DNA of 64,000 nucleotides from a virus. Positions 4,358-58,483 of the stretch are shown here, piece by piece. Below the pieces are notes generated by a model. The model was not told the DNA's origin and searched no databases. It worked only from the letters and a program-made list of their open reading frames with translations. Positions within the stretch are counted from its first letter, which is position 1. Each line of letters opens with the position of its first letter. The stretch covers positions 27,046 to 91,045 of the IMG/VR virus record IMGVR_UViG_3300021085_002857; one strand, written 5' to 3'. Position numbers and translations under genes: made by a program.

Positions 4358-5607
4358 AGTTCATCTTTTATGCGTTTAAATTCTGGTGCCACTGTCATTA
4401 CATCATGCATACGAAACTTATCATAGTTTTCAGTTATATCTACATATTGTTTCATTATTGCTGGATTATATTGGTGTTCTGGATCTTTACCAAAATTAAT
4501 AATTTCCATTAAAGGTTCCTCATAGTCTTCAAAATGTGGACTATTGCCTATACTGGATAAAAATTCTAGTATTTGTTTTTCCTGTTCATCTTTAAGCCAT
4601 TGTGGTGCATGTGCCATACTATAATAGTGTGGCTCAATAAGTTGGTTACTACTCATACCAATACCTCTATCGCTAGTCATTTGGTAGTCATGCATAAAGC
4701 GCCAAAAGTCTGCAATATGCAATGCATTTGTCATTTGATTGACTGTGGTAACTCGTACTTTAATACGTTTACCTTCTTTAGTATTGCTATATTTGACTAG
4801 TTTATCAAAGTTTTTCCAGACAGAAGGCCACTTGGAAGGTGGACGCAAATAGTCGTTCATATCGCCCATACCTTCCAAGGAGCAGTTTACAATCACTTTT
4901 TCGAACTTCCCTAATTGTTCTAACCATCTGTCTTGCATATTAGTAATATTGGTATAGAAACTAAGTTCGATATGACTGGCGTGTCCGGATTCTACTGCGA
5001 GGTCTAGCAAGGTAAACATGTCCTTGGCAACCGTAGGTTCCCCGCCTATTAGTTTGATTTTACGAGCTTTCCCAATCATTTCCTCAAAGCTCGCCCAGTC
5101 TATTCCAGGTTGAAGAAGAGCCTGCTTCTTGTTTGCAATCATGCCATGCCAATCGGGATGGTCTGCCCCGAGTCCGCTTTCAACCATTTGTGCTCGCTCG
5201 ACACTTACTAAGTGTGAAGCCTCTTTATTGCACATCTGACATTGTAAATTGCATAAATTACCAAGCCTGAAATCAAATTGTAAAGGTTGTTCTACCTCCC
5301 AATCGTTGACGGAAGCGTCAGCAACCACTTCGTCAATTACGTCTTCCCACACCTCATTTTCCCATTGGCGTGAGCTAACTATATTATTTCTTTCTAGATG
5401 TTCACATTCTACACATTCAGGAAGCCACTCCCCTTCTGCCATGCGTCTACGTACATCTTTTATGTAGTCGTGATTCCATGTACCCTGGATCCCAAGTTTT
5501 TCTTGATCCACAAGTTCTTCTGGCTCCTTTGCCATACAGCAAAGCCTATATCGACCTCCATTATATGTACTATATTGTACAAATGGTAAAGCACAAAATC
5601 CGCTCAT
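4354..5607 (-). CDS. Twitch-type radical SAM protein
   Basis: A 417-residue radical SAM protein with an N-terminal cysteine module before the core. C5 in FCALPF, C23-C24 in RLCCMA and C64/C67 (ECVECEH) look like an auxiliary Fe-S site; the CX3CX2C motif is C118, C122 and C125 (CNLQCQMC), followed by a KLIGGEPT motif. This order (CC module, CxxC, then the SAM core) is shared with the genes at 5604, 7686 and 56866 and is found in marine phage proteins annotated as twitch-domain radical SAM. It overlaps the 5604 gene by four bases. Substrate unknown. Confidence 0.88.
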   Translation of the reverse strand: MSGFCALPFVQYSTYNGGRYRLCCMAKEPEELVDQEKLGIQGTWNHDYIKDVRRRMAEGEWLPECVECEHLERNNIVSSRQWENEVWEDVIDEVVADASVNDWEVEQPLQFDFRLGNLCNLQCQMCNKEASHLVSVERAQMVESGLGADHPDWHGMIANKKQALLQPGIDWASFEEMIGKARKIKLIGGEPTVAKDMFTLLDLAVESGHASHIELSFYTNITNMQDRWLEQLGKFEKVIVNCSLEGMGDMNDYLRPPSKWPSVWKNFDKLVKYSNTKEGKRIKVRVTTVNQMTNALHIADFWRFMHDYQMTSDRGIGMSSNQLIEPHYYSMAHAPQWLKDEQEKQILEFLSSIGNSPHFEDYEEPLMEIINFGKDPEHQYNPAIMKQYVDITENYDKFRMHDVMTVAPEFKRIKDEL

Positions 5608-52046: not shown

Positions 52047-52569
52047 TAAACCTTTCATATGTTGTTTTTATGTTTTCCAAATAGTTTAGCATACTATTTG
52101 CATCACTTACTTGAAAGCATGTCATGGGATTATGTGTAAAATCTTCATACTTTACAATTTTACAAATAAGGTTGTCTATGATCATACTATATCTATGACT
52201 ACGATTTTTTCCTAATCCTTCTTTTGACATGTCTTCCAACATGCCAATTTTTTCTGCCCATTCGTATGCAGGGTCAGGAAGTGCTTGTATATCTGTGATA
52301 CCTTCACTATTCAACCAAGCACGTTGTACATATGTATCTTCTGTACTTGTAACCCAAATCTCATCTATTCCCAACTCTTTAAATTTAGTGTAAAAGAATT
52401 CATATGTACGCATTTGGCTTGCGGCATACTCAACAATAAAACTACCTGGTACGCCTATAAGTAATATTCTTTTATCTTTAAAAAGTTCGTGTGTACTTTT
52501 CCATTCTGTTGTATATCCAGTCTTATGTAATGTTTTTACATCTGGTATAATATCAGCTATCCTGATCAT
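52000..52569 (-). CDS. Prx5-like protein lacking the peroxidatic cysteine
   Basis: A 189-residue member of the peroxiredoxin-5/redoxin fold. ILLIGVPGSFIVEYAAS corresponds to the family PGAFTPTCS motif, and IDEIWVTSTEDTYVQRAW to the SVNDPFVMDAW strand. The catalytic cysteine is replaced by Y48, so it cannot be a normal peroxidase. A later FQVSDANSML also fits the fold. The overlap with the B12-type radical SAM gene suggests a partner or repurposed role. A C-terminal helix follows. Confidence 0.7.
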   Translation of the reverse strand: MIRIADIIPDVKTLHKTGYTTEWKSTHELFKDKRILLIGVPGSFIVEYAASQMRTYEFFYTKFKELGIDEIWVTSTEDTYVQRAWLNSEGITDIQALPDPAYEWAEKIGMLEDMSKEGLGKNRSHRYSMIIDNLICKIVKYEDFTHNPMTCFQVSDANSMLNYLENIKTTYERFNDEARDTITADGKSK

Positions 52570-54436
52570 ATTCTATTACCCTTTCATTTGTTTCTAAGAA
52601 GCATCTTTTTGCTTTTCTACCATACCAAAATAAATGTTTTGCATGATCCAAGATGTCCTTATAGTTTTTTATTTTTACAGTAACTTCACTTTCTACGTCT
52701 TTTAAAGGATCATTTTTCAAAAACCAATTAGTATAATTTTTAGTAAATGTTCTACTGTCTGTTGATCTATTGTATCTATCTAATATATGCTTATTGTACT
52801 CTAGCAATTCAGTAATATCCAGATCCCACCTAGCACTTACAATCATTTTTAATTCTTTATAAATTTCATCTATATTTGTATATAGCCAAGATGCAGTTGC
52901 TCCATTATCTTGCATATGGAAGTTATCTTGTGATTTGTAAACTGGCCTGCCCCATGGTTTATTTTTAAATAAACTATCCTTTACACTGTCAGTATGAACA
53001 ACATATTCTTTATGTAATGCACCACTACTTATTTTGCTCCACTCAAACAAAAATTTATAATATTCTATAAGAGGAACATTGAGCTCTCTGTTTAAATAAG
53101 TTGCAATAACTTGGCTGAATCCATGATAATGATGTGGGATAACAATGCCTTTGGTAAAGAAGTAACAATCTATCCATTCTTCCTCTGTCATAGTATTACT
53201 TGAATAACAAATGTAATCTATCTCGTTGTTGCTATCTTCTGGATAAGTATTGCCTCCTGCAGGTGCAGGTGTTGCAGTATATTTTAATCCATATAAGTTT
53301 TTATAGTCGTCTTGCATAAAAGGAGTATTGGGTACAATGCTAAGTGGATGCATTTGTAATGCATGATCACTTCCTATGTCTAAAATTTGTGCAATACCAT
53401 TTATCCAACTATCAAAAGATTCGTTAGGTAGTCCTAATATAAGCTCACAGTAATTATCAACACCATTTTTATGAAAGTCGTCTATAGTTTCTTTTAATTT
53501 GTCATTTGCTGCATTAACACGTTTAATTGCAGCCAATGTATCTGGGTTCATACTTTGTAAAGCAATAGTCATCCCTCTACTAATACCTGCTTCCTGATTA
53601 AGAATTTTACCTAGTTCTGTAACTCTCTCTGGTGACTGTTTTGCTGTAGCGTAGTCAATATTTCTAGGATATCCTGTTTTTACTTTATTTTTAGCAACTC
53701 TTTTCATAATTTTTAAGTCACGTTCAAAAATACCTAGGTTACTATCTGCAAAATAAAGAAAGTCAATTTTCTTCTTTGATACCCAGTCTATTTCCTTTAG
53801 AACTCTTTTTTCTTCAAACTTTGCTATTTTATTATAGTAGAGTGCCTCTTGGTCACAAAATGTACATTGGTATGGGCAACCTCTATTTGTTTCTATAATA
53901 GCACTATATTTTTTGCCTTTTTGCATAAGGCTATCCATAAGTCCACTAAGATAAGGACTTGGAATATCATCTATATATTTGTCTGGTTTAGGGGCTTTAT
54001 AATCATGATCTAAACTTAAAATACCAGGCGTATCTAAATTATTTCTAAGTATTTCAGCAAAAGTTCTTTCTCCAGCATATGTAATAATTATATCACATAT
54101 ATCTGTATTTTCCTCTAACCATTGCTTTTTGTAAGGCACTTGTGGGCCGCCCATTACAACTTTGCAGTCTGGATATTTTTGCTTAATTTGTTTTGCTAGT
54201 TCTTGACTTGCTTGCCAATTCCAAACATACGTACTAATTGCAACTATATCAGGATCTTGTATTTGTTCTACATAGTTTTCAGTAGTATCTCTTTCAAAAA
54301 TAATACCACCCAATTCCCAATTTTTTATAATATCTTTTTGTGTTTTACAATACTCCCACAGATAAGCAACCGATAACGGCAAAAAGGTCGCATCTGCAAT
54401 AATATTATTAATCTGTGTAAAGTAAATTTTTTTCAT
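52553..54436 (-). CDS. B12-binding-type radical SAM protein
   Basis: A 627-residue enzyme, the largest radical SAM protein here. The N-terminal region (VVMGGPQVPYKKQWL, IITYAGERTF) is of B12-binding layout; NRGCPYQCTFCD binds the cluster; MTIALQSMNPDTL and CELILGLPNESF are barrel strands. A C-terminal part of about 180 residues is unassigned. I choose ATG 54436 with AAGGGA upstream over a GTG at 54439. It heads an operon of six genes behind a CATAAATA box. Confidence 0.87.
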   Translation of the reverse strand: MKKIYFTQINNIIADATFLPLSVAYLWEYCKTQKDIIKNWELGGIIFERDTTENYVEQIQDPDIVAISTYVWNWQASQELAKQIKQKYPDCKVVMGGPQVPYKKQWLEENTDICDIIITYAGERTFAEILRNNLDTPGILSLDHDYKAPKPDKYIDDIPSPYLSGLMDSLMQKGKKYSAIIETNRGCPYQCTFCDQEALYYNKIAKFEEKRVLKEIDWVSKKKIDFLYFADSNLGIFERDLKIMKRVAKNKVKTGYPRNIDYATAKQSPERVTELGKILNQEAGISRGMTIALQSMNPDTLAAIKRVNAANDKLKETIDDFHKNGVDNYCELILGLPNESFDSWINGIAQILDIGSDHALQMHPLSIVPNTPFMQDDYKNLYGLKYTATPAPAGGNTYPEDSNNEIDYICYSSNTMTEEEWIDCYFFTKGIVIPHHYHGFSQVIATYLNRELNVPLIEYYKFLFEWSKISSGALHKEYVVHTDSVKDSLFKNKPWGRPVYKSQDNFHMQDNGATASWLYTNIDEIYKELKMIVSARWDLDITELLEYNKHILDRYNRSTDSRTFTKNYTNWFLKNDPLKDVESEVTVKIKNYKDILDHAKHLFWYGRKAKRCFLETNERVIEYDQDS

Positions 54437-54531
54437 CACATTCCCTTAAAGGATCATATGGTAGATGTGGCCCCATAAAGCCAAATGTGAAATACTAGCT
54501 AGAACTAGCGCCGATCAGGCAGTAACACTCT
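54437..54531 (-). other. Leader of the B12 radical SAM operon
   Basis: About 95 bases lie between the box at 54532-54539 and ATG 54436. On the minus strand TGGC/GCCA and CTAG/CTAG pairs can form, but I see no known riboswitch motif and no gene. It could be an ordinary leader or hold the processing end of the tRNA-Trp transcript. Confidence 0.35.
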
Positions 54532-54539
54532 TATTTATG
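54532..54539 (-). promoter_or_regulatory. Late-type promoter box
   Basis: CATAAATA on the minus strand between the tRNA-Trp 3' end and the B12 radical SAM operon. Confidence 0.45.
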
Positions 54540-54544
54540 CGAAT

Positions 54545-54618
54545 TGGCAAAGGTGAAGGGAATCGAACCCCTATCTTCAGTTTTGGAGACTGACGTGTTG
54601 CCACTACACCACACCCTT
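54545..54618 (-). tRNA. tRNA-Trp (CCA)
   Basis: The cloverleaf is complete: the acceptor AAGGGTG pairs with CACCTTT (one G-U), the anticodon stem TCAGT/ACTGA encloses CTCCAAA with anticodon CCA, and the T arm reads GGGTTCGATTCCC. The 3' CCA is encoded. A TTGACT promoter lies upstream. Confidence 0.92.
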
Positions 54619-54626
54619 ATAGTTAC

Positions 54627-54654
54627 ATATTAGCATACTTAGCATTTAAGTCAA
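54627..54654 (-). promoter_or_regulatory. Sigma70-type promoter for tRNA-Trp
   Basis: TTGACT (54649-54654), 16-base spacer and TAATAT (54627-54632) on the minus strand, nine bases before the tRNA. Confidence 0.6.
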
Positions 54655-54658
54655 GCAA

Positions 54659-54666
54659 TATAAATA
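54659..54666 (+). promoter_or_regulatory. Late-type promoter box (leaderless)
   Basis: TATAAATA, then five bases (TAATT), then ATG 54672. It lies back-to-back with the tRNA-Trp promoter. Confidence 0.7.
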
Positions 54667-54671
54667 TAATT

Positions 54672-55322
54672 ATGGACAAATATGAATATGCATTTGACTT
54701 TGCTGTAACGACATTCTGCCAATCTAAATGCAGGACATGCCCTAGAACAAATACTGATACAGGAGAAATGGTTGATTGGTTAACACCAACACATGTTCCT
54801 TTGGAAACTCTTAAGCATCGTTTTGATAGTATAAAGTCTATATTGCCAAGATCTAAATTTTTACATGCACAGCTATGTGGAGAGTTTGGAGATCCTATAA
54901 TGCATCCACAGATAGATAAAATTGTAGATTATTTGCAGTCTTCTGATCATGTTAGTGCAATAGAAATAAACACAAATGGCGGATTACGACAACCCAAGTG
55001 GTATGAAAAGATAGGTGAATACGATAAGATAGAAATTATATTTGGTATTGATGGTATTGATCACGACACTAATTGGAAATATAGAGAAGGTGTTGACTTT
55101 AAAAGAGCATGGGAAAATATGTTAGCATTTAAAAGCAAAAGCAATAGAATCAACTGGCAGTTTATAATATTTGAATGGAATTGGCATCAAATAGAAGAAG
55201 CCAAACAAATAGCTGATGACTTAGATATTAAAATTAGCTTTATCATAAACAGAGGATTTCATGGTAGATTGACACCTGAACTTCGCAATAGAGTGGAGAG
55301 TATTTTAAATGTCCTGTCTTGA
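54672..55322 (+). CDS. Radical SAM protein, N-terminal part of a split enzyme
   Basis: A 216-residue radical SAM core: C16, C20 and C23 (CQSKCRTC), CGEFGDPIMHP and IEINTNGGLR. It stops at TGA 55320-55322, just where related proteins carry on into a C-terminal cysteine domain, and that domain is encoded by the overlapping next frame (55309-55605). It has a late-type box five bases before ATG. Either a true two-gene split or a frameshift. Confidence 0.8.
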   Translation: MDKYEYAFDFAVTTFCQSKCRTCPRTNTDTGEMVDWLTPTHVPLETLKHRFDSIKSILPRSKFLHAQLCGEFGDPIMHPQIDKIVDYLQSSDHVSAIEINTNGGLRQPKWYEKIGEYDKIEIIFGIDGIDHDTNWKYREGVDFKRAWENMLAFKSKSNRINWQFIIFEWNWHQIEEAKQIADDLDIKISFIINRGFHGRLTPELRNRVESILNVLS

Positions 55323-55605
55323 TTGCCACGTGATACATTTGTCATATAGAAAAATGTTTGAAGTTACTGCACAGGGCAGAGTATGGCCATGTTGTCATTT
55401 GGCATCCCATTATGATGAAAAACATCCTATTGAAGATAAAGTACTTACAGACAAATTTAAAGATGATCCAGATTGGAATAATATTGACAAACATTCTATT
55501 GACAAAATACTGGATGATAAAATGTTCAGGGAAGTTTTCCCTTCGCATGAAAACCCACAGGGCTCAGTTTTAAAAACTTGTCAAATATATTGTAAAAAGA
55601 AGTAA
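55309..55605 (+). CDS. SPASM-like C-terminal half of the split radical SAM enzyme
   Basis: A 98-residue cysteine-rich protein (SCLDCHV, GRVWPCCHLA and a CQIYC pair near the end) that matches the C-terminal domains of the intact relatives at 310 and 40698. It is in the +1 frame relative to the 54672 gene and begins with an ATG that overlaps that gene's end by 14 bases. Translational coupling could make the two halves as separate subunits; a single frameshift error could also explain the split. Confidence 0.72.
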   Translation: MSCLDCHVIHLSYRKMFEVTAQGRVWPCCHLASHYDEKHPIEDKVLTDKFKDDPDWNNIDKHSIDKILDDKMFREVFPSHENPQGSVLKTCQIYCKKK

Positions 55606-55680
55606 TGGCTGGAACGATAGGACTCGAACCTATACTCTGCGCTACCAAAAAGCGATGCATTACCATTATGCTACGTTCCA
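55606..55680 (-). tRNA. tRNA-Gln (UUG)
   Basis: Acceptor TGGAACG pairs with CGTTCCA; the anticodon loop TTTTGGT carries TTG; the T arm is ATAGG/CCTAT; the 3' end GCCA is encoded. The anticodon stem has one T-C mismatch at 27-43. The tRNA begins one base after the stop of the split radical SAM gene. Confidence 0.9.
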
Positions 55681-55689
55681 ATATAATTT

Positions 55690-55718
55690 AATATAACACC
55701 TGTTAATGTAATTGTCAA
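55690..55718 (-). promoter_or_regulatory. Sigma70-type promoter for tRNA-Gln
   Basis: TTGACA (55713-55718), 17-base spacer and TATATT (55690-55695) on the minus strand. Confidence 0.72.
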
Positions 55719-55731
55719 CAGTTTTATTTAT

Positions 55732-55739
55732 AATAAATA
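55732..55739 (+). promoter_or_regulatory. Late-type promoter box (leaderless)
   Basis: AATAAATA, then five bases (AAACT), then ATG 55745. One base from the consensus. Confidence 0.6.
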
Positions 55740-55744
55740 AAACT

Positions 55745-56518
55745 ATGGAATATAATGATAATAATCGTGCTGATATTGAAACTATAAAATATTTTATAAA
55801 AGAATCACAACAATATGAGCATTATGAGCTTATACAACCTAAGCCTACAAAATTTGATAACTGGCAAGGCGATATAGATATAAGGCAGGAATATGCTAAA
55901 TGGATTAGTGAGGAATCAAGAGCACCAACGTTAAAGTTTGATCTTCCCAACTTACCAGTCCAAGAAATGGTTGATGAGGCATACAACGCTAGTGAATATT
56001 TTATAAAACAGCGAGCTAACGCCCATCCTGGATGGTTTAGTATGGCGCTGCATGCACAAGGCGAACCTGGTTCTGGATCTATGTATACTGATAATCCTAG
56101 ATATTATCCTGGAGTGGAACAAGAACATAGCTGGACAGAGCTTGCTGAATTTTGTCCACGGACAACAGAATGGTTTAAAGATGTCTGGCCATCTTCAGAT
56201 AGATTAAATCGTGTAAGATTTATGTTATTGCGTCCAGGAGGTTGGATTGGTATACATAGCGATACTGGCGAAAATGCTTGGCGTTTAATGACATATAATA
56301 TAGCATTAACGAATCCTAGCAATTGTTTATTTGCTCAAGAAAAAGCAGGAACAGTTCCTTGGGAAATTGGAGATATTCGTTTTATGGATGTCTCAAGATT
56401 GCATTGTGTATATAATGATACAGATCAAGATCGTTTACATATGATTGTTTTGGATGATTATAATGAACCAAAGCAGGAATTAGCATGTAATAGCTATGAT
56501 AAACTTATTGGTAGTTAA
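55745..56518 (+). CDS. Fe(II)/2OG oxygenase-like protein (aspartyl-hydroxylase-like)
   Basis: A 257-residue protein. RVRFMLLRPGGWIGIHSDTG holds an HxD pair, with a distal histidine in MDVSRLHCVYNDTDQDR and the arginine ligand after it, like aspartyl/asparaginyl beta-hydroxylases. I start at ATG 55745 because of the box spacing; upstream in-frame codons from 55712 lie on the promoter. It is a free-standing plus-strand gene between tRNA-Gln and tRNA-Glu. Confidence 0.8.
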   Translation: MEYNDNNRADIETIKYFIKESQQYEHYELIQPKPTKFDNWQGDIDIRQEYAKWISEESRAPTLKFDLPNLPVQEMVDEAYNASEYFIKQRANAHPGWFSMALHAQGEPGSGSMYTDNPRYYPGVEQEHSWTELAEFCPRTTEWFKDVWPSSDRLNRVRFMLLRPGGWIGIHSDTGENAWRLMTYNIALTNPSNCLFAQEKAGTVPWEIGDIRFMDVSRLHCVYNDTDQDRLHMIVLDDYNEPKQELACNSYDKLIGS

Positions 56519-56529
56519 ACCAAATTAAG

Positions 56530-56604
56530 TGGTAGTCCCTACGGGAATCGAACCCGTCTTTCCAGGTTGAAAACCTGGCGTCCTAACCGATAGACGAAGG
56601 GACC
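56530..56604 (-). tRNA. tRNA-Glu (UUC)
   Basis: Acceptor GGTCCCT with AGGGACT, anticodon stem CCAGG/CCTGG around TTTTCAA (anticodon TTC), T arm ACGGG/CCCGT, encoded 3' CCA. It follows tRNA-Ser on the same transcript. Confidence 0.92.
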
Positions 56605-56608
56605 ACTG

Positions 56609-56699
56609 TGGCGGGCAGTTAGGGATTCGAACCCTAGGAACGCTATTAACGCTCGTCCGCTTAGTAGGCGGGTGCTTTAAACCACTCAGCCAACTACCC
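56609..56699 (-). tRNA. tRNA-Ser with anticodon ACU
   Basis: A long-variable-arm tRNA: acceptor GGGTAGT/ACTGCCC, D arm TGGCTGAGTGGTTTAAAGC, anticodon loop CTACTAA (ACT), discriminator G and encoded CCA. These are serine-type features. Bacterial tRNA-Ser for AGC/AGU normally has GCU; A34 here is unusual. The upstream RNA stem ends one base before this tRNA. Confidence 0.85.
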
Positions 56700-56700
56700 T

Positions 56701-56799
56701 AACAGTTTAGAAATACATACTCGCTTGCGCCCTTGTGAGGCCTTGTCCCATACACTGAAAAGCAGGTGTATCTGCTCCGGTATGCATTTCTAAACTGTT
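56701..56799 (-). ncRNA. Structured RNA of unknown class
   Basis: A 99-base element whose first and last 20 bases pair perfectly except for one G-U (arms 56780-56799 and 56701-56720). The 59-base interior has an AGCAG/CTGCT hairpin whose loop ATACAC is complementary to GTGTAT downstream, so an H-type pseudoknot can form; GCC/GGC and a GCGCAAGC tetraloop-like hairpin follow. A TTGACA-N17-TATAGT promoter predicts transcription from 56799, the first base of the stem, and tRNA-Ser follows one base after its end. It matches no class I know. Confidence 0.75.
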
Positions 56800-56805
56800 A
56801 AACTT

Positions 56806-56834
56806 ACTATAATACATTTATTATTTATTGTCAA
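56806..56834 (-). promoter_or_regulatory. Sigma70-type promoter for the structured RNA and tRNA-Ser/Glu
   Basis: TTGACA (56829-56834), 17-base spacer and TATAGT (56806-56811), minus strand; the predicted start is the stem base 56799. Confidence 0.78.
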
Positions 56835-56852
56835 GCCTTTATTATGTATGTA

Positions 56853-56860
56853 TATAAATA
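56853..56860 (+). promoter_or_regulatory. Late-type promoter box (leaderless)
   Basis: TATAAATA, then five bases (TAATT), then ATG 56866, divergent from the structured-RNA promoter. Confidence 0.7.
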
Positions 56861-56865
56861 TAATT

Positions 56866-57936
56866 ATGAAGTGCAAATGGCCATTAAATCATTTAAGTAT
56901 TAGTAGTACAGGTGTCTATAGACCATGTTGTGCTTGGCAAGAATCTGAAGGACAACCTCTTGTTGCTACAAATACCTTACAGGATTATCTTAATAGTAAT
57001 TTTTATAAAGACATCATTAATGATCTATCTAATGGTAGGTTCGCTAAAGGCTGTGAAGAATGTGTATTGGATGAACAGGCTGGTGTTGAAGGCATGGTAC
57101 ATAGTGGAAACTTCAGATATCCAGATAAAACAGAATTTTCTGTATACGATATGGAAATTAAATTTGGGAATATTTGTAACGCAGGTTGTATAATGTGTAG
57201 TGCATATAATAGTAGCCTTATAGAAGAAGAAAATAAAAAGAATAGTGAACTTTTAAAGTATAGACGTAACTTTACTAGCCCTACAGGAAATTGGTTTGAA
57301 GATCCTGAAAAGTTCGAAGAGATAGCCATACTAGCATCACAATGTAAAAAAATACGTTTTACTGGAGGAGAACCAACAGTACGTGGATTAGTAGATGATT
57401 TTCTTGCAATTGTAGCAAAACATAGCACTAAGCCACTTATCCAACTTACAAGTAATGGAAGTAGTTTTGGTGGCAAATTACAAGAATGTCTACAACAATT
57501 TGACAAAGTGAATATGAACCTAAGTATTGATGGGTTTGACAAAGCTAACGATTTTATTAGATGGCCAATTAAGTGGAAAAAACTTACTAAGAATATAGAC
57601 AAAATGCAAAGTTATAAAAATATACACTGTAATGTTGAAACAAGTTTACAAGCAGGTAGTCTACATAAATTAGATAAACTTGTTGAGTTTTGTAATGAGA
57701 GAAACTTAGACTGGAATCCATGCAGTGTCTATAGTCCAGAATATTTACAACCTTTCTTAGCTAATGAAGAAATTATAGAAAAAGCAATGAGTTTAGGAAA
57801 TAAAAAAGTAAACAAGTTGCTTGTATATAATAGCGGTAAACAAAAGAAGGAAATTTTGAGATCTAAAATGATTAGATACTATGATACATTAAGTAAAGTT
57901 AGAGGTATAGATTGGAAGGAATGTTTTGATGTCTGA
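56866..57936 (+). CDS. Twitch-type radical SAM protein
   Basis: A 356-residue member of the group at 4354, 5604 and 7686. N-terminal cysteines include CKWPLNH, YRPCCAW and CEECVLDE; the core CX3CX2C is CNAGCIMC with IRFTGGEPTVRG after it. The start is set by the promoter box, five bases before ATG 56866. Its end overlaps the next oxygenase gene by eight bases, so it is linked to an oxygenase, as elsewhere in the window. Confidence 0.87.
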   Translation: MKCKWPLNHLSISSTGVYRPCCAWQESEGQPLVATNTLQDYLNSNFYKDIINDLSNGRFAKGCEECVLDEQAGVEGMVHSGNFRYPDKTEFSVYDMEIKFGNICNAGCIMCSAYNSSLIEEENKKNSELLKYRRNFTSPTGNWFEDPEKFEEIAILASQCKKIRFTGGEPTVRGLVDDFLAIVAKHSTKPLIQLTSNGSSFGGKLQECLQQFDKVNMNLSIDGFDKANDFIRWPIKWKKLTKNIDKMQSYKNIHCNVETSLQAGSLHKLDKLVEFCNERNLDWNPCSVYSPEYLQPFLANEEIIEKAMSLGNKKVNKLLVYNSGKQKKEILRSKMIRYYDTLSKVRGIDWKECFDV

Positions 57937-58483
57937 TTTTTTAGAACATATTACAAATAAAATTACCAATGCGAAATTAGTAACTGACCCTTGGAAGTAT
58001 ATAGTTATTAATGACTTCTTTCCTGAACCTGTTTTGGAAAAATTTCTCGCAATGCATGAAAGTTTAGATTGGGAAGATTTATTTGACGAAGAAAGTAGTT
58101 GGTTTACAGTCAAAAAGCCTAATAATGAAATGAATATATTGAAAGGAGATACATTTACACAATCTCTATTCGAAATATTTGATTATTTTCCTGGAGAGTA
58201 TATTACCAAACAATCTTTCAAAGACGATACAGACAAAAATACATTACAACCTCCCCATAGAGACAAAGGCGAGTTTATAATGACACTACAGGTATTCTTA
58301 CAGCCTAAATCATATAAAGATGGCGGCACAATCGTAATGAGTAACAGTGAAACAGATGTAATAGAACTTCCACTAATTACAAATAGCTGTACAATATTTT
58401 TAACGAATGACAAATCTTGGCACAGAGTCGAGCAACGCAATTATGAAAGAAAAAGTTTTTTACAAAGATGGATCGCAACTTAA
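57929..58483 (+). CDS. Fe(II)/2OG oxygenase-like protein
   Basis: A 184-residue protein from ATG 57929 inside the radical SAM stop region. HxD is in LQPPHRDKGEF, the distal histidine in NDKSWHRVEQ, and an arginine in RKSFLQRWI. This is a full set of prolyl-hydroxylase-like ligands. It overlaps the ParB-like gene by 16 bases; the three plus-strand genes 56866-58863 look like one transcript. Confidence 0.8.
   Translation: MSDFLEHITNKITNAKLVTDPWKYIVINDFFPEPVLEKFLAMHESLDWEDLFDEESSWFTVKKPNNEMNILKGDTFTQSLFEIFDYFPGEYITKQSFKDDTDKNTLQPPHRDKGEFIMTLQVFLQPKSYKDGGTIVMSNSETDVIELPLITNSCTIFLTNDKSWHRVEQRNYERKSFLQRWIAT

Follow-up and report, generated by a model that had tools for sequence, protein, structure and literature searches.

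A marine T4-like phage carries a conserved structured RNA between a promoter and a tRNA-Ser gene. In a homologue on another viral contig (L001), the helices of this RNA have changed by compensatory substitutions and its core has kept exactly the same sequence. We think that this locus of ~100 nt is a phage gene for a small non-coding RNA, which would be co-transcribed with the tRNA, freed by RNase P, protected by its closing helix, and active in trans through its core. We give this reading a probability of roughly 0.55.

A long closing helix between a promoter and tRNA-Ser

The RNA is encoded in the window, i.e., the whole 64-kb stretch of DNA that was analyzed (Table 1). A preliminary description of the locus had reported two arms (56780-56799 and 56701-56720) pairing over 20 bp with one G-U; these can be read directly from the sequence, and the inverted-repeat tool extends them to 21 bp. 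The extended closing stem, with its single G-U, is 95% complementary and encloses 59 nt. Of the 12 inverted repeats listed for the window, it is the strongest, and the longest that is near-perfect and short-range. Folding of the minus strand from 56700 to 56806 gives a minimum free energy (MFE) of -41.1 kcal/mol (z = -6.6), which none of 200 shuffled sequences equaled. Inside the helix, the loop of a small hairpin (S1, AGCAG/CTGCT) has the sequence ATACAC, and this loop is, as first described, the exact complement of a GTGTAT further on; we call this second potential pairing S2.

The promoter-like pair TTGACA/TATAGT matches the consensus at 11 of 12 positions, and its predicted start falls at the base of the closing helix, in agreement with the earlier proposal that transcription initiates at the first paired base. 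At the other end, the 20-bp arm and tRNA-Ser are indeed separated by a single base (56700). We found no terminator between the RNA and tRNA-Ser, and no expression platform (terminator or ribosome site) 3' of the RNA. Two more tRNAs stand isolated in the window (tRNA-Gln and tRNA-Trp), each with a promoter directly upstream and no RNA of this kind.

In this part of the window (52553-58483), minus-strand tRNA genes with their own promoters alternate with plus-strand radical-SAM and aspartyl-hydroxylase genes. The latter look inserted between the tRNAs, since a related phage (G002, see below) has its Ser, Gln, and Glu tRNAs next to each other. The tRNA-Ser has the anticodon ACU (A34), where GCU is usual, in the window (56609-56699, minus), in L001 (5433, plus), in L183 (7852, plus), and in many of the loci L283 to L361. 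A tRNA-Ser(ACU) pattern matched at least 119 viral stretches, and such tRNAs appear to be common in phages.

Table 1. Features of the RNA gene and of its surroundings in the window
Feature	Position	Strand	Remarks
-35 hexamer TTGACA	56829..56834	-	Identical TTGACA in L001
-10 hexamer TATAGT, 17-nt spacer	56806..56811	-	Predicted +1 at ~56800-56798; TATATT and N16 in L001
Structured RNA	56700-56800	-	Between the TTGACA-N17-TATAGT promoter and tRNA-Ser
Closing stem, 5' arm TAACAGTTTAGAAATGCATAC	56780..56800	-	From inverted repeat and fold
Inner closing pairs C-G and G-C (A-U in L001)	56778..56779 with 56722..56723	-	One compensatory change
49-nt core	56724..56772	-	49/49 identical in L001
S1, 5' strand AGCAG	56772..56776	-	AGUGG in L001, wobble pairing kept
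S2, 5' strand AUACAC (the S1 loop)	56766..56771	-	Perfect complement of 56750-56755; possible pseudoknot
S1, 3' strand CUGCU	56761..56765	-	Partner of 56772..56776
S2, 3' strand GUGUAU	56750..56755	-	10 nt downstream of AUACAC
Predicted small hairpin GCCU-CACAA-GGGC	56729..56741	-	In MFE folds of the window and L001 sequences, mean pair probability ~0.7; invariant
Closing stem, 3' arm GTATGTATTTCTAAACTGTTA	56700..56720	-	Ends at the tRNA-Ser 5' end
tRNA-Ser (anticodon ACU)	56609..56699	-	Putatively co-transcribed with the RNA, whose 3' end would be defined by RNase P cleavage here
tRNA-Glu (UUC)	56530..56604	-	Second tRNA in the unit

Covariation of the helices and invariance of the core

A search of IMG/VR for homologues, by exact match to 19 nt of the core, retrieved two loci. 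One of them, L006, comes from the same phage as the window and has an identical RNA. The other, L001, is a contig of 5.5 kb with a run of tRNA-Arg, tRNA-Met, and tRNA-Leu, and encodes proteins that we take, from inspection by eye, to be T4-like gp32-like and UvsX/RecA-like. Its UvsX is 76% identical in protein and 77% in DNA to that of the sister record of the window (G001), and L001 is thus a diverged relative. There, a TTGACA-N16-TATATT sequence, the RNA (5332-5422, plus), and an incomplete tRNA-Ser, again with ...TTACTAA... in the anticodon loop, follow each other in the same order as in the window, so that both the promoter and the place directly before tRNA-Ser, two elements of the preliminary description, recur in the homologue. 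The position of the RNA in the genome differs, ~2.7 kb after uvsX in L001 versus ~33 kb after uvsX in G001.

The window and L001 RNAs align without gaps over 91 columns (alignment A2). They differ in 13 of these. All 13 fall in helices, and none of them abolishes a pair. Both partners have changed in five pairs, of which four belong to the closing stem and one to the inner closing pairs, and the compensatory changes that were to be sought in homologues are therefore present in one independent sequence. The 16 aligned closing-stem pairs show, besides the double changes, one G-U/G-C switch and none that is broken. In S1, two one-sided changes preserve wobble pairing. Sliding the 3' partners by 1 to 3 columns gave zero double changes, and a column-shuffle control gave 20/500, a value whose floor is not much lower with two sequences. 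Within the core (56772-56724) 49 of 49 bases (100%) are identical, compared with 77% for uvsX DNA, 75% for tRNA-Ser, and 72% for the closing stem.

The re-pairing of the helices by compensatory changes, together with the unchanged core, indicates that the RNA is real and selected. Hence, this is a conserved structured RNA. One could argue from the recovery of only two independent copies that we are looking at a chance or relic inverted repeat, with no function as RNA. We find this hardly credible, given the z-score of the fold and the invariant core, and it is contradicted by the covariation in L001. The drift of the closing stem argues against a very recent transfer, and the contrast between a fixed core and a drifting helix argues for a core that is read as sequence on a helix that drifts freely.

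A possible pseudoknot in the core

The pairing of AUACAC with GUGUAU makes a pseudoknot possible. All six S2 pairs are invariant between the window and L001, and the covariation, with two sequences only, is neutral on this point. Together, S1 and S2 would make up a compact pseudoknot of the H type, whose loop of 5 nt reads UUUCA and in which the S1 pair adjoining S2 would probably have to open, leaving a 1-nt connector. The two helices compete in nested folding, with values of -32.8 (S1) and -30.9 (S2) in the window and of -25.7 (S1) and -25.9 (S2) in L001. In the latter, S1 is held by wobble pairs alone, is not the best nested fold, and competes with alternative pairings. We considered a G-A kink-turn at the inner junction and found no evidence for it. 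A resemblance by eye of CACCUGCUUUU to the 3' end of 16S rRNA, which we take to be CACCUCCUUUC, was dropped because CCUGC would pair poorly with a Shine-Dalgarno sequence.

A compact core with an H-type pseudoknot is typical of aptamers and small ribozymes. The invariant core and the possible pseudoknot could thus belong to a riboswitch-like sensor or to a self-cleaving ribozyme placed before the tRNA. We regard this as quite improbable, since no expression platform lies downstream and no riboswitch or ribozyme family of Rfam matches the RNA credibly even at E<=10.

A rare addition to phage tRNA units

The RNA is a rare accessory element, for which we have two independent sequences. Four more RNA patterns and one tRNA-Ser pattern, run on viral contigs, yielded no homologue other than L001 and L006 among the matches listed, and two protein-anchored viral scans gave no homologue besides these. 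The RNA was not found by two patterns in 85,000 prokaryote genomes, nor at the 79 loci with phage tRNA-Ser(ACU) or similar genes among the matches listed, and blastn against phage isolates and plasmids gave nothing convincing. In a covariance search of 50 plus 20 whole related phage records, many of them fragments, only the sister record has the RNA, and the 49 plus 20 others lack it. All other pattern matches were coding or due to chance, the best chance ones being L151 and L305 (~17.5 bits).

The closest relative of the window by its MoxR-type ATPase, G002, has a corresponding tRNA-Ser(ACU)-Gln-Glu unit, in which the RNA is absent and the promoter lies immediately before the tRNAs. Judging from the sequence of this unit, the RNA is dispensable for tRNA expression. 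The operon of G002, together with tRNA-Gln and tRNA-Trp of the window, indicates that a promoter followed by a tRNA is the default design and that the RNA is an addition to it, which favors an independent product over a leader needed by the tRNA.

A 183.8-kb relative (G018) encodes a permuted tmRNA of the alphaproteobacterial type (L192, 1818-2001, minus; RF01849, 65.5 bits). This phage tmRNA hints at an alphaproteobacterial host.

Other structured RNAs that end at phage tRNAs

We scanned the related loci upstream of tRNAs for stems whose 3' arm ends at most 12 nt from the tRNA. Such stems, with a score of at least 14, precede 13 of 562 tRNAs, against 0 of 562 in mononucleotide-shuffled upstream regions. 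The true number of families is below 13, since some of the contigs are redundant and some of the stems are ordinary short hairpins or surround whole tRNAs. Several of these stems (14-24 bp) close RNAs that match no Rfam family and are unrelated to that of the window. An RNA of ~160 nt, closed by a long stem, ends 3 nt before tRNA-Asn in L186 (G005, IMGVR_UViG_3300031703_000599; 1740-1901, minus; MFE -65.5, z -7.9). Another one, whose ~110 nt are closed by a near-perfect stem of 18 bp, ends 2 nt before tRNA-Asn within a tRNA array in L207 (13845-13954, plus; z -6.8), and the same sequence is present in L284 and L299. A family with a closing stem of 15-18 bp recurs before tRNA-Phe(GAA), upstream of L323 12684 (plus), L352 4694 (minus), and L356 5134 (minus), with a diverged member, equally without Rfam match, upstream of L340 231 (minus); this family lends itself to a covariance study. 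Finally, a structured element of ~180 nt, closed by a stem of 16 bp, precedes tRNA-Ser(ACU) in L331 (~1285-1466, plus). A second, weaker structured RNA lies before tRNA-Gly in L186 (1060-1170). We rejected the idea of general complementary processing stems flanking the tRNAs of these phages, as flank pairing was not clearly above that of re-paired flanks.

The recurrence of long closing stems upstream of phage tRNAs, and the fact that in both phages the helix stops exactly where the tRNA begins, could also mean that the RNA is a leader for tRNA maturation or stability, in which the helix merely insulates tRNA-Ser, blocks 5' decay, or sets the processing site. Such a leader would not require 49 invariant core bases while the tRNA itself varies by 25%, and a tRNA-Ser without the RNA exists in G002. 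We consider this explanation unlikely. The long-stem RNAs at other phage tRNA 5' ends suggest a wider class. Much more tentatively, and with the odds rather against it, this could be an unrecognised class of RNAs with a variable long closing helix, a fixed core, and a 3' end matured by RNase P exactly where the tRNA begins, the cores acting in trans on host functions or defenses.

How the RNA could be made and act

We favor a small RNA that the tRNA transcript probably yields in addition to the tRNAs, through cleavage by RNase P, and that would act in trans. Host RNA polymerase, recruited by the sigma-70-type promoter, would start where the closing helix begins and make one precursor transcript of the RNA, tRNA-Ser, and tRNA-Glu. 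The RNase P cut at the tRNA 5' end would release the RNA with both ends locked in the 20-bp helix, which should make it resistant to end-dependent decay. This helix, which has varied in the two sequences while remaining paired, probably presents the invariant core, with a compact and partly predicted fold made of S1, S2, and the small hairpin. The core would most likely bind a host protein or RNA in trans, and might be a decoy, an inhibitor, or an RNP scaffold useful during infection. That its 49 nt stayed constant while the tRNA, uvsX, and the helix drifted by about a quarter implies strong selection on its sequence, and this points to a specific host partner.

The chief alternative is a nascent antiterminator of the put type, i.e., a cis-acting element (put-like or EAR-like) that would fold on leaving the promoter and make the polymerase processive, or otherwise control the untranslated tRNA unit. 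The putRNA of HK022, ~70 nt long, acts unaided on RNA polymerase, and putL lies just downstream of PL (PMC9378689). The RNA described here is also small, structured, and directly behind a promoter, in both the window and L001, these promoters being recognized by consensus match only, and a sequence-fixed core would suit binding to the conserved host polymerase. Yet putRNA consists of two stem-loops in protein-coding early operons, and not of an invariant core within one long closing helix. Furthermore, with so short a unit, and with separate promoters in front of the other isolated tRNAs of the window, there is no evident need for long read-through; in G002 the equivalent operon is driven without the RNA; and there is no terminator in the region. 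On balance, the odds are clearly against such an element.

Relation to known RNA families and systems

The RNA belongs to a known general kind, the small RNAs encoded with phage tRNAs, and lies outside all the families tested. At gathering thresholds, cmscan with Rfam 15 reported only tRNAs in the whole window and nothing over the RNA, which bears out the earlier view that it is not 6S, SRP, tmRNA, or a recognised riboswitch, and which means that the check for a confident match to a known family came out empty. A local Rfam search of the RNA region at E<=10 gave only weak or tRNA-overlapping chance matches, the best one besides the tRNA families being sX4, with 33 of 70 bits, over the tRNA. 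The riboswitch, ribozyme, ROOL, and GOLLD families all stayed below their gathering thresholds. A retron msr-msd was rejected, as there is no RVT_1 match in the records of G000, G001, and L001, which are fragments, and the control genomes were positive.

ROOL and GOLLD are phage and prophage non-coding RNAs of no known function that are often found near tRNA islands (PMC12286853). They could be seen as analogues on a larger scale, being phage-linked and close to tRNAs, but they are far larger and their models do not match our RNA. RNAC and RNAD of T4 (species 1 and 2 RNA) are transcribed from the tRNA region, were confirmed by northern blot, and have no known role (PMC3014915, PMC9697503). Like the RNA of the window, they are small (119-139 nt) and encoded in the tRNA region of a T4-like phage, and RNAD lies 1 nt from a tRNA. 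Unlike it, they follow tRNA-Arg, whereas our RNA precedes tRNA-Ser behind a promoter, and their folds have no 20-bp closing helix from end to end. No homology was detected, the best blastn match (word size 7) being a 9-nt chance word (E 0.42), and the covariance model R1 gave no match in the T4 region L127. We regard RNAC and RNAD as the nearest functional analogues of our RNA, and not as its homologues. A second, more compact RNA unrelated to them, with signs of more such families, makes the role of tRNA-linked phage RNAs testable with short synthetic constructs.
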